Shown: piece by piece, positions 20,085 through 24,484 of the stretch
Layout of the letters: the number at the start of each line of letters is the position of its first letter
Numbering within the stretch: position 1 is the first letter of the stretch
From: an uncultured marine group I thaumarchaeote
Lineage (GTDB): Archaea; Thermoproteota; Nitrososphaeria; Nitrososphaerales; Nitrosopumilaceae
Reading direction: 5' to 3'
Length of the DNA: 51,492 nt
Assembly: GCA_902514095.1 (NCBI GenBank)
Contig: CABXPS010000002.1
Location: 1-51,492 of the forward strand
Position numbers and translations under genes: made by a program
The notes under the pieces: model-generated
The model's input: only the letters and a program-made list of their open reading frames with translations
What the model was told of the DNA's origin: nothing
Database searches by the model: none

Positions 20085-21197
20085 TTATGCGATTTCATCT
20101 CTAAGTTTTTTAGTAATTGTAACTTCAATATTTTCTAAAACTTCTAACATTTTATCTTTATTTTCAATCATGTAATCTGCTCCTCTGTCTTTTAGTCTGA
20201 TTTTCCATAATCTTATTTCTCTATGTTCTTCAAAGAAATTTTCAATCATTTGTTCTCCTGATTTTGTTGGATCTATGAATTGGTCAAAAACTTCTATTGC
20301 ATTTTCTACATCTGCTTCCTCAATTGCTTCTTTTGCAGACTGAATTGCTTGACTCATCGCTTTCAAATTTTTAACTGGTTTTGGTAGTTTCTTTTTTGTA
20401 ATTCCAAATAATCCTATTTTTTCTTTACCTACTTTATCTGCAAAGTTATCTGAAAGATCATAAATTGGTATTTTACTTAAACCGTCACGTTTTTCATTTT
20501 GTACAATTAATCCTTTTTCTAATAATTTTCTTAGTGCTGTTTCTGCATCAGCTTTATCTAGAAATGTTGTCCAAACAATTGCACCAATTGTGTGATATCC
20601 TTGTCTAACTGATTCTAAAACTACTACTTCTTCAATTCTTTTGAAACCTTCTTCAATTCTTACATTAACAAAATCTTTGTCTCTAATTGACTTTCTTGCA
20701 TTCTTAACATCAATTTCTATTGCATGTTTTAATGCTTGTAGTGATTCTGGTACTTGATTTAACAATGATAAGAAACATGCTTTGTTGTACCATGCCATTC
20801 CGTATGTCTTGTCTGATTCAATTGCTTTATTGACTGCATCTAATGCTTGTGCATATTTTTTTTGTTCATAATGTACTAATCCTTTGAGATTCCAAGCTTC
20901 TGGATTTGTTACATCCACATCTAAAATTTTGTCATACACTTTTAGTGCATCATTATGATCTTCTAAATGGAATCTAGCATATCCTAATTTCATTAAAACT
21001 TCAATATTATCTGGTTCAATTCGTAATGCTTGTTCAAATATTTCAATTGCATCATCTAATTTTTCATCGGCCATTAAATTGACTCCTTTTTTATATAATT
21101 TTTTAATATTGTAGCTTGGATCTACTAAGCTTCTTTCTTTGGTAACTATTTTCTCTGATTTTACTTCCTCGGTTTTTTTCTTTTTTTTACCAAACAT
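20085..21197 (-). CDS. TPR-repeat protein with a probable winged-helix segment
   Basis: 370 residues. A Lys-rich start (MFGKKKKKTEE) is followed by about four tetratricopeptide repeats (for example DAIEIFEQALRIEPDNIEVL, then ALKVYDKILDVDVTNPEAW), roughly residues 30-170. A middle part (DKADAETALRKLLEKGLIVQ) looks like a winged helix, and a helical C-terminal domain follows. TPRs mediate protein-protein contacts; the partner is unknown. The stop lies one base beyond the rhodanese stop on the other strand. Confidence 0.82.
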   Translation of the reverse strand: MFGKKKKKTEEVKSEKIVTKERSLVDPSYNIKKLYKKGVNLMADEKLDDAIEIFEQALRIEPDNIEVLMKLGYARFHLEDHNDALKVYDKILDVDVTNPEAWNLKGLVHYEQKKYAQALDAVNKAIESDKTYGMAWYNKACFLSLLNQVPESLQALKHAIEIDVKNARKSIRDKDFVNVRIEEGFKRIEEVVVLESVRQGYHTIGAIVWTTFLDKADAETALRKLLEKGLIVQNEKRDGLSKIPIYDLSDNFADKVGKEKIGLFGITKKKLPKPVKNLKAMSQAIQSAKEAIEEADVENAIEVFDQFIDPTKSGEQMIENFFEEHREIRLWKIRLKDRGADYMIENKDKMLEVLENIEVTITKKLRDEIA

Positions 21198-21322
21198 GCT
21201 ATTCGATTTTTGTTTTTATCTAGTTAAATACCATTTTAATCAAGACTATATCCTATAATTTCATATTTTGGTTAGATTAGGCGATCCAAATCCTGAAATA
21301 CTTCAAATATTAACAAACGATT

Positions 21323-22819
21323 GTGTCATCTCAGCCACGAATTGAAATTCAAGGACAGGCACCATTTAAACAATCAGGTGTTTATGAAGCCCAAATTTCA
21401 ATAACCAACACTAAACCATCTGATGATGAAATTAAAACTAAACAATTTTCCCACCTATGGCAAGGTCATTTTCATCTTAGTGTTAAAGATGGTGTTTTTT
21501 CTGAAATAATTGGTGATTCTAAAAACCCTTTGCCTTCATCAATTAATGATGTTGATACTATTTGGGTTATTGTAAATGATTTATTTTCTTCATTATATTC
21601 TATTTTTGATGTTACATTAAGAAAAACTTCTGATGAGAAAAAAAGTACTGTTAAAAAAGAAAAAAATGATGTAATTTCTGAACCACCAAAAACTAAACGT
21701 TCCTCTAAATCTACTTCAAATTCTGGTTCACCTGGGTCTACTGGTGTAAGAGGTGCAACTGGATTACCGGGACCACTTGGTCAACGAGGTCCATCTGGTG
21801 ACAAAGGTCCATCTGGTGCAAAAGGTCCATCTGGTCCATCTGGTGACAAAGGTCCACAAGGAGACAAAGGTCCAACTGGTGTTACTGGTGACAAAGGTGA
21901 TAAGGGTGACAAAGGAGTTACTGGTCTATCTGGTGATAAGGGTGACAAAGGTCCAACTGGTGTTACTGGAGATAAAGGTGCAACTGGATTAAAAGGATCA
22001 ATTGGTTCAACTGGTGACAAAGGCGAAAAAGGTCCAACTGGTGTTACTGGAGATAAAGGTGCAACTGGATTAAAAGGTGCAACTGGTCCAACTGGTGAAA
22101 AAGGACCAACTGGACTTTCTGGCGATAAAGGAATTTCTGGAATCCGCGGAATTCCTGGATTAAAAGGTGACAAAGGTCCACAAGGTGCTATTGGAGATAA
22201 AGGATTAACTGGACCTGTTGGAATTTCTGGCGATAAAGGACCAACTGGTACATCTGGAGTTCAAGGAGAAAAAGGAATTCACGGTGCTACTGGCCCTATA
22301 GGAGAAAAAGGAACTACTGGTCCATCTGGTGACAAAGGTCCACAAGGTCCACAAGGTGTTGCAGGATCTAAAGGATTAACTGGAGTTCCAGGTCCACAAG
22401 GAGAAAAAGGAGAAAAAGGTCTGATTGGCCCTATAGGAGAAAAAGGAACTACTGGTCCACCTGGAATTTCTGGTGACAAAGGCCAACAAGGTCCACAAGG
22501 AACACAAGGTGAACGTGGAACTACTGGTCCATCTGGAGAAAAAGGTCCACAAGGTCCACAAGGAATTCAAGGTCCACAAGGTGAACGTGGTCCAGCTGGC
22601 CCAATTGGTTCTATTGGAGAACCTGGCCCTATTGGAGGACAAGGTCCTGTAGGTCCAGCAGGTCCACGAGGTCCACCTGGTCCGCCTGGAGAAAAAGGTC
22701 CATCTGGTGGTATGTCTCCAGAACAAAAGGCTATTTTCAAAGAACTTTTAGAAATTTTAACAACTAAAGAAATCATTAGTACTGAAGAACAAATTAAATT
22801 GATGAGTTATTTGTATTAA
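21323..22819 (+). CDS. Collagen-like protein (109 uninterrupted Gly-X-Y triplets)
   Basis: 498 residues in three parts. Residues 1-134 form a globular domain (start [16 protein letters not shown]) ending in a charged Lys/Ser linker. Residues 135-461 are 109 perfect Gly-X-Y triplets. Residues 462-498 form a short helical tail ([18 protein letters not shown]). Many triplets are GDK, GEK or GPx; Lys-Gly-Asp/Glu neighbours can stabilise a triple helix without hydroxyproline. No signal peptide or membrane anchor is visible, so its location is unclear. The start is GTG 21323 because an in-frame TAA sits at 21311. I infer a trimer; the function is unknown. Confidence 0.9.
21725..22705 (+). repeat. 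Collagen Gly-X-Y coding repeat with internal perfect DNA duplications
   Basis: Nine-base codon periodicity (GGN-X-Y) throughout. Two longer exact copies stand out: 50 bases at 21947-21996 repeated at 22028-22077 (81-base offset, nine triplets), and 34 bases at 22291-22324 repeated at 22426-22459 (135-base offset). Both offsets keep the triplet frame, which indicates growth by in-frame duplication. Confidence 0.9.
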
Positions 22820-22924: not shown

Positions 22925-23089
22925 TTATCGTCTTTTTGCTGCTTTTCTCTTTGGAGCTGCTTTGCGTTTTGCTGCTGCCTTTCTCTTTGGAGCTGCTTTT
23001 CTCTTTGGAGCTGCTTTTCTATTTGGAGCTGCTTTGGTAGATGCTTTAGTTGATCTACGTTTAGTTGCAGCTTTTCTTTTTGTAGCCAT
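22925..23089 (-). CDS. Histone H1-tail-like Lys/Ala/Pro-rich basic protein
   Basis: A 54-residue ORF (ATG 23087-23089, TAA 22925-22927) that reads MATKRKAATKRRSTKAS and then repeats of KAAPKR, ending KAAKRR. About half of its residues are Lys or Arg; Ala and Pro fill most of the rest. This is the composition of eukaryotic H1 C-terminal tails and of some bacterial DNA-condensing proteins. I infer nucleic-acid binding or condensation. Hydrophobic (FLFGAA-rich) and Gln-rich frames overlapping it on the two strands are artefacts of the same repeat DNA. The upstream AT-rich region 23090-23150 probably holds its promoter. Confidence 0.85.
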   Translation of the reverse strand: MATKRKAATKRRSTKASTKAAPNRKAAPKRKAAPKRKAAAKRKAAPKRKAAKRR

Positions 23090-23374: not shown

Positions 23375-24484
23375 TTAAATTCCTCTTCTTTTGATAATTG
23401 TGAATACATCTTCATCTTGCATAATGTGATTCAAACCAACTCTTTGTCCTCCAAATTTCACACTTTTACCCCAAACTAATCCATATCTGAATTGTCTTTT
23501 TAATCTACGGTGTAATTTGTTACAAATATCTTCAACTGTATCTCCTTCTCTTGCAATAAATGGTTCTTTGAAATCTGTCTCTCCTCCTTTGGGTCGCATG
23601 TATATCCTGATAAATTTTAATTTTTCATATATTTTTTCTTTTAGAACTTCTATATTGATATCTGAGTTTGCTGATACTTCAATTACGTCTGATTTTATTT
23701 TTGTTTTTAGATCTAATAAAAATTTCTTGTCTACCAAATCAATTTTATTTAAAACTGTAATTGCTTTTGAATAACTAATATTTCCTGCAATGTGATCTGC
23801 AATTTGTTCTGATGTAATGTCTTCTCTTACTACAACTCGTGCACTAACTAATCCATAAAGATGAAGAATATCTTTAAGATGTTTTTCTGTAATTTTTGTG
23901 AGCTTAGTTTGTTGTGCAATTGCAATGCCTCCCATTGATGCTTTTTCAATTGTAATATTTGGAGGTAATTGATTTAATCTAATTCCAATATTTCCTAATT
24001 CATTTATTAAAACATCTTCGTGATATGGTTGAAACACATCTAATATCAATAAAACTAAATCTGCTGTTCTTGCAACTGATAAAATTCTTTTACCTAATCC
24101 TTTTCCTGATGATGCTCCTTTGATGATTCCTGGAAGATCTAAAACTTGAATTTTTGCACCTCGATAATCCATCATTCCTGGAACAACTGTTAATGTAGTA
24201 AACTGAAATGCACCTATTGTAGAATTTGCACCTGTCATTTTATTTAGTAATGTTGATTTTCCAACACTTGGTAATCCTATGAATACAACTGTTGCATCTC
24301 CGCTACGCCGAACATCAAACCCATCTTGTTTCATTCCAGATTTTTTGGTAACTTCTGCTTCTTGCTCTCTTTTTAATTTTGCAATTTTTGCTTTTAGTAA
24401 GCCTATGTGATGCTCAGTTGCCTTGTTAATCTGAGTTCTTGCCATCTCATCTTGGATGGATTTAATTTTTTCAGGAATTCCCAA
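23375..24484 (-). CDS. DRG-family GTPase with C-terminal TGS domain
   Basis: A 369-residue GTP-binding protein of the developmentally-regulated (DRG/Obg-related) family. An N-terminal helical region (residues 1-60) is followed by G1 GLPSVGKSTLLNK, G3 DLPGIIKGASSGKGLG, G4 NKID and a TGS domain at the C-terminus (RPKGGETDFKEPFI, then VEDICNKLHRRL). The family is implicated in ribosome-associated translation control in eukaryotes and is universal in archaea. Length and motif order are normal. It is preceded by a 161-base spacer and followed by a long AT-rich spacer. Confidence 0.94.
   Translation of the reverse strand: MGIPEKIKSIQDEMARTQINKATEHHIGLLKAKIAKLKREQEAEVTKKSGMKQDGFDVRRSGDATVVFIGLPSVGKSTLLNKMTGANSTIGAFQFTTLTVVPGMMDYRGAKIQVLDLPGIIKGASSGKGLGKRILSVARTADLVLLILDVFQPYHEDVLINELGNIGIRLNQLPPNITIEKASMGGIAIAQQTKLTKITEKHLKDILHLYGLVSARVVVREDITSEQIADHIAGNISYSKAITVLNKIDLVDKKFLLDLKTKIKSDVIEVSANSDINIEVLKEKIYEKLKFIRIYMRPKGGETDFKEPFIAREGDTVEDICNKLHRRLKRQFRYGLVWGKSVKFGGQRVGLNHIMQDEDVFTIIKRRGI

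Follow-up and report, generated by a model that had tools for sequence, protein, structure and literature searches.

The collagen-like protein encoded in the window (the whole stretch of DNA analysed, 51,492 nucleotides) is a near-universal, syntenic and normally single-copy protein of Nitrosopumilaceae, the archaeal family to which the dominant ammonia oxidisers of the sea belong, and it carries a conserved charge barcode as well as a nucleation-like C-terminal end. These properties go beyond an earlier note on this DNA, which had recognised a long unbroken collagen-like protein in an archaeon; that recognition itself was borne out by the sole Pfam match of the whole protein (Collagen, PF01391, E = 4.8e-53) and by 53 complete relatives, each with a single unbroken run (6208 triplets together). 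Our main reading, to which we assign a probability of roughly 45%, is that this core collagen forms a homotrimeric rod in the cytosol, which zips up starting at the C-terminus and acts as a spacer or scaffold.

Gene and protein architecture

The gene lies in a Nitrosopumilus MAG (0.87 Mb, 71% complete; contig C2), starts with GTG (the start codon also in 40 of 53 relatives) and encodes 498 amino acids (Table 1). The open frame around it comprises 501 codons, just three of which precede the GTG; thus, the in-frame TAA upstream fixes the N-terminus and excludes a hidden N-terminal signal peptide. The centre of a BRE/TATA-like block conserved in the upstream DNA lies ~26–30 nt before the GTG, a position that fits a leaderless collagen mRNA. 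An assembly artefact or a frameshift, a concern raised in the earlier note, is ruled out as the source of this ORF, whose frame is intact in the window and in its orthologues. As a separate observation, the locus L129 of a single-contig genome (G041) has head, collagen and tail all present in different frames, a split attributable to a sequencing error, a pseudogene or a programmed shift. MAG contigs often stop within the collagen repeat (e.g., at L013, L014, L016, L017 and L026), and short-read annotations of the gene are therefore often truncated or missing.

Table 1. Features of the collagen locus and its flanks (window positions)
Feature	Position	Strand	Basis and remarks
TPR protein, divergent neighbour	20085..21197	-	Pfam, synteny; 370 aa
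BRE/TATA-like block, consensus GCGATCTAAATACAGAAATACTTGA	21281..21305	+	upstream DNA alignment, 30 relatives; conserved
Stop TAA	21311..21313	+	sequence; in frame, three codons before GTG
Collagen ORF	21323..22819	+	
N-terminal head	21323..21724	+	alignment A1, AlphaFold2
Collagen region	21725..22714	+	Pfam PF01391; 110 Gly-X-Y triplets, ~94 nm if triple-helical
GDKGDKGDK cluster	21887..21913	+	sequence; '###' column in charge patterns
Pro-rich collagen end	22661..22696	+	compared in 53 relatives; near-invariant, just before tail
C-terminal tail	22715..22816	+	alignment A3 of 52 tails, AlphaFold2; helical hairpin
GTPase with MMR_HSR1 + TGS domains, downstream neighbour	23375..24484	-	Pfam, synteny; position conserved

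The protein consists of a 134-aa head, an unbroken series of Gly-X-Y triplets, with Gly at every third residue as Pfam PF01391 requires over a long stretch, and a 34-aa tail; the 109 triplets and 37-residue tail counted previously are equally right if GGM is assigned to the tail. A series of this length greatly exceeds what chance would produce. The same head-collagen-tail order with one unbroken run of 84–163 triplets was found in 53 of 54 complete relatives, an arrangement of homologues on which the earlier note had made its reading depend. The remaining one, L093 of a reduced genome, is a shorter protein with a masked stretch inside. We define the Nitrosopumilaceae core collagen family by a head alignable in A1, an unbroken collagen region of at least 80 triplets and a tail alignable in A3, in this order and once per genome, and the window protein has all of these.

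Selection on the repeat is evident at the codon level. Among 64 pairs of relatives (equal length, at least 75% identity), glycine codons display 3277 synonymous and 0 non-synonymous differences vs. 4229 synonymous and 4133 non-synonymous differences at X and Y codons, counts that express constraint rather than independent events, as the pairs have common ancestry. This selection on glycine supports triple-helix formation, in which case the rod would measure ~94 nm in the window, with a median of 106 nm and a range of 72–140 nm across the family. Of 12 genomes, 10 lack a PF13640 enzyme; hydroxyproline is thus unlikely to be required, and prolyl hydroxylation was accordingly set aside as a requirement. 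Overall, we hold this anatomy of the core collagen to be well supported, with little room for doubt.

AlphaFold2 predictions cover both flanking domains. The head is a predicted beta domain (residues 7–98, with two short helices; block means 90–96 for residues 11–100) followed by a variable linker (~103–134), and alignment A1 (30 heads) contains 18 invariant columns. It matched nothing in Pfam, PHROG or the PDB sequences, and none of its fold hits was significant; the best Foldseek hit in PDB by probability, SgrA of Enterococcus (TM 0.43–0.49, E 0.4), is not significant. A common bacterial beta domain (motif GxFSVxLGxxxPLPxxxF) was considered for the head; a plasmid search with an approximate consensus of this domain returned 0 matches. 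The tail hairpin is predicted with block means of 92–98 throughout, and on the model it is likely to be a trimerisation or docking element. Neither Pfam nor the PDB sequences gave a match to it, and no fold hit reached significance, so that a SHOCT-like or other known hairpin found no support.

Cellular location, distribution and genomic neighbourhood

The lack of a signal peptide, as the earlier note had stated, holds for the window protein (given the upstream stop and a polar N-terminus) and for all 53 relatives inspected. Hydrophobic or membrane stretches were absent from the five sequences tested (maximum KD-19 = 1.25), and the window protein has no LPXTG. Two other collagens of Nitrosopumilaceae, L128 and L132, do have signal peptides, as judged by eye from their N-terminal sequences. 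With no signal, no hydrophobic segment and no LPXTG, and with exported relatives that carry signal peptides, the cytosol is the simplest location, and the missing signal peptide makes residence there probable, at about two chances in three.

The L128 gene (3199–10755, minus strand), from a related genus, encodes 2518 aa with a signal-like N-terminus and 559 unbroken triplets, almost all GLT/GAT/GIQ/GPQ, followed by other domains. L132 (minus strand, a 313-aa frame) is a small secreted protein; its signal peptide is accompanied by 15 GPP/GPE triplets, and its C-terminal region resembles, by eye, a phage tail collar domain. A further short repeat in the genome of the window itself (L136, C13:9392–9463) belongs to DnaK, whose C-terminal GADGQQ repeat amounts to 8 Gly-X-Y triplets.

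The strongest competing explanation is a protein of the cell surface or matrix that leaves the cell with no Sec/Tat signal and the head or tail of which would dock to the S-layer or pili so as to stiffen the cell or make it stick. Among the bacterial collagens studied to date, most have their function at the surface, and a 2026 study of a relative, Ca. Nitrosotenuis chungbukensis, reported 'LPXTG-anchored collagen-like adhesins' that were raised at low salt, with one in the proteome (PMC13037477). However, besides the missing export and anchoring features described above, collagens of the same archaeal family that are destined for export bear signal peptides, and with the streptococcal NCBI model behind the adhesin name, whose cut-off is 325 bits, the core protein scores no more than 185–270 bits vs. 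1021 bits for L128. As the giant type passes this cut-off and the core protein falls below it, the published adhesin is more likely an L128-like giant than the core protein, and we consider surface action of the core collagen unlikely, at about one chance in four.

The distribution of the family was traced with the head searched alone, which kept out spurious matches due to the repeat. The head is present in 206 of 250 Nitrosopumilaceae genomes (122 of 131 good genomes; 22/22 sampled genera), nearly always as a single copy. Within the class, a 30-row head profile matched 187 of 400 genomes and 22 of 82 genera, and these are the 22 genera of Nitrosopumilaceae. A phylum-wide sample likewise gave convincing head matches in Nitrosopumilaceae only, two other genomes being at chance level (E 0.04–0.1), and the tail profile had the same distribution (Nitrosopumilaceae only, once per genome, apart from one extra weak match in one genome). 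Even the 0.8-Mb genomes of genus g22 keep the gene, with a shorter run and a diverged tail. Several absences are assembly breaks: in G130 and G206 the contig stops next to the TPR gene (for G206 the collagen tail was found on another contig), and in G158 it starts inside that gene. In G028, a different gene adjoins the TPR gene where the collagen gene is missing. Two public MAG contigs labelled Phycisphaerae bacterium (L073) and Nitrososphaeraceae (L062) hold a Nitrosopumilus-type collagen locus and are probably misbinned.

The neighbourhood, comprising genes for an NIR/SIR reductase, a rhodanese, the divergent TPR protein, the TGS-domain GTPase, a phosphatase and ArgRS, is kept in most relatives. 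The TPR protein has a conserved, non-TPR C-terminal half, and its gene adjoins the collagen gene in most relatives (with few rearrangements). A functional pairing of the two is weakened by the presence of the TPR gene in several families of the order, including families without the collagen gene. The collagen gene is also adjoined by an ORF (22929–23089, minus strand) for a 53-aa Lys/Ala-rich protein (MATKRKAATKRRSTKASTKAAPNRK...) resembling a histone H1 tail, and similar ORFs occur at the same place in L071, L083, L091 and L094.

This neighbourhood bears on a second alternative, a tail fibre domesticated from a virus or a component of an injection device, comparable to the cytoplasm-made prophage collagens EPclA of E. 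coli, whose dumbbell plan is alike (an N domain and a C-terminal trimerisation module at the two ends of the collagen; PMC3368898). Against such an origin stand the housekeeping neighbours and strict synteny between genera, together with the lack of head relatives in viral contigs or phages, of a PHROG match and of a significant viral fold, which leave it highly improbable.

Charge barcode and Pro-rich end

Charged triplets (Asp/Glu in X, Lys/Arg in Y; GDK/GEK) recur every four triplets, i.e., every 12 residues or 3.4 nm. Family-wide, the lag-4 autocorrelation of charged triplets is 0.477 vs. -0.011 ± 0.013 in shuffles, and the 12-residue period was significant in all 13 sequences tested singly, with the window protein being the weakest (p = 0.022). 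When sequences are aligned from the C-terminal end, charged positions agree between genera; in equal-length pairs 89% of them are common vs. 26% expected, and exact triplet identity reaches 74% at charged vs. 51% at uncharged triplets. The period is absent from the unrelated secreted L128 of the same archaeal family, in a search of its 559 triplets.

Adjacent GDK/GEK triplets are mostly confined to one short conserved cluster, GDKGDKGDK, which holds several Lys-Gly-Asp contacts, and the others are spaced four apart. Due to this spacing, Lys-Gly-Asp/Glu contacts are rarer than chance (316 observed family-wide vs. 511 expected from shuffled triplets); the window protein has 4 Lys-Gly-Asp, 2 Lys-Gly-Glu and 12 Lys-Gly-Pro. 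Such neighbours had been put forward in the earlier note as the stabiliser of the triple helix, and because they are depleted across the family, this proposal does not hold and was rejected as a design principle. The idea of a cytosolic organiser of chromatin or another charged polymer, with Lys every 12 residues (3.4 nm) approximating one B-DNA turn, can draw on the conserved period and on a collagen region that, in almost every relative, has a net charge of zero or above, but Asp or Glu beside Lys leaves each band nearly neutral, the 3.4 nm match may be coincidence and no known DNA-binding domain is present, making this the least probable explanation of all.

Fibrillar collagens fold from a Pro-rich C-terminal end beside a trimerisation domain. 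By analogy, the Pro-rich end of the core collagen is the likely nucleation site of its triple helix.

Proposed role and comparison with known collagens

In the cytosolic rod that we favour, three C-terminal hairpins would bring the chains together, the Pro-rich segment beside the hairpin would start the triple helix, and the helix would then zip towards the N-terminus to give a stiff rod carrying three beta-domain heads. The GDK/GEK bands could allow side-by-side packing of rods or docking of partners at set points. Inside the cell, such a rod might be a spacer or scaffold that keeps a partner of the heads ~100 nm away from a partner of the tails, or it might bundle into a filament. We infer the trimer, the folding direction, the cytosolic site and the scaffold role alike. 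As the protein is near-universal in Nitrosopumilaceae and has no export signal, these cells may use collagen internally as a structural spacer; it would not be a strict ruler, because rod length varies between 84 and 163 triplets. A more far-reaching version, in which the rod-shaped Nitrosopumilaceae have from their ancestor an intracellular collagen that works as a cytoskeletal or spacing element, with the 12-residue barcode setting packing or docking, is speculative and on balance doubtful. Nitrosopumilaceae are rod-shaped and Nitrososphaera-type cells coccoid (PMC13037477). This difference in cell shape parallels the distribution of the collagen, and proves nothing.

Collagen is usually regarded as extracellular and animal, and prokaryotic collagens as surface proteins with a patchy occurrence in pathogens, spores and phages. 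If the core collagen is cytosolic, archaea that rank among the most abundant would have collagen as a core structural protein inside the cell. The gene is also a possible marker for Nitrosopumilaceae, the protein could offer triple-helix engineering a design free of hydroxyproline, and its localisation is directly testable, as cultured species of the family exist. The earlier remark that archaeal collagens are poorly described agrees with how scarcely they are treated in the searchable open literature: archaea are unmentioned in a review of prokaryotic collagens (PMC8968730), and a 2015 count listed 14 archaeal entries in the Pfam collagen family (PMC4565658). Our searches of 5.4 million open papers for collagen in Nitrosopumilus, Thaumarchaeota, Nitrososphaerota or archaea found no description of the core collagen, and this family-wide protein is apparently undescribed so far.

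Of the known systems, Scl1 and Scl2 of Streptococcus (NF038330, NF038329) share with the core collagen a long unbroken charged Gly-X-Y region and no need for hydroxyproline, and they trimerise by a flanking domain, as is proposed here. They are, however, secreted and LPXTG-anchored, whereas the window protein has neither signal peptide nor LPXTG anchor, possesses a different head and reaches only 258 bits (relatives 185–270) vs. the 325-bit cut-off of these models. BclA-type collagens of the Bacillus spore surface resemble the core collagen in having a rod with a beta-rich end and no Sec signal. BclA differs in that its trimeric beta domain lies at the C-terminus and its N-terminus directs the protein to the exosporium; Nitrosopumilaceae, unlike the hosts of BclA, are not known to form spores. 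EPclA of an E. coli O157 prophage, made in the cytoplasm, is likewise a dumbbell with an N-terminal domain, a rod and a C-terminal trimerisation module (PMC3368898), but it has the phage fibre domains PfN and PfC, whereas the core collagen is without both, matches Collagen only in Pfam, has no PHROG, phage or viral-contig match and is a chromosomal core gene. Finally, the giant L128 shares with the core collagen the archaeal family and an unbroken collagen region, and differs from it in its signal peptide, its other flanking domains and a repeat without the charged period.
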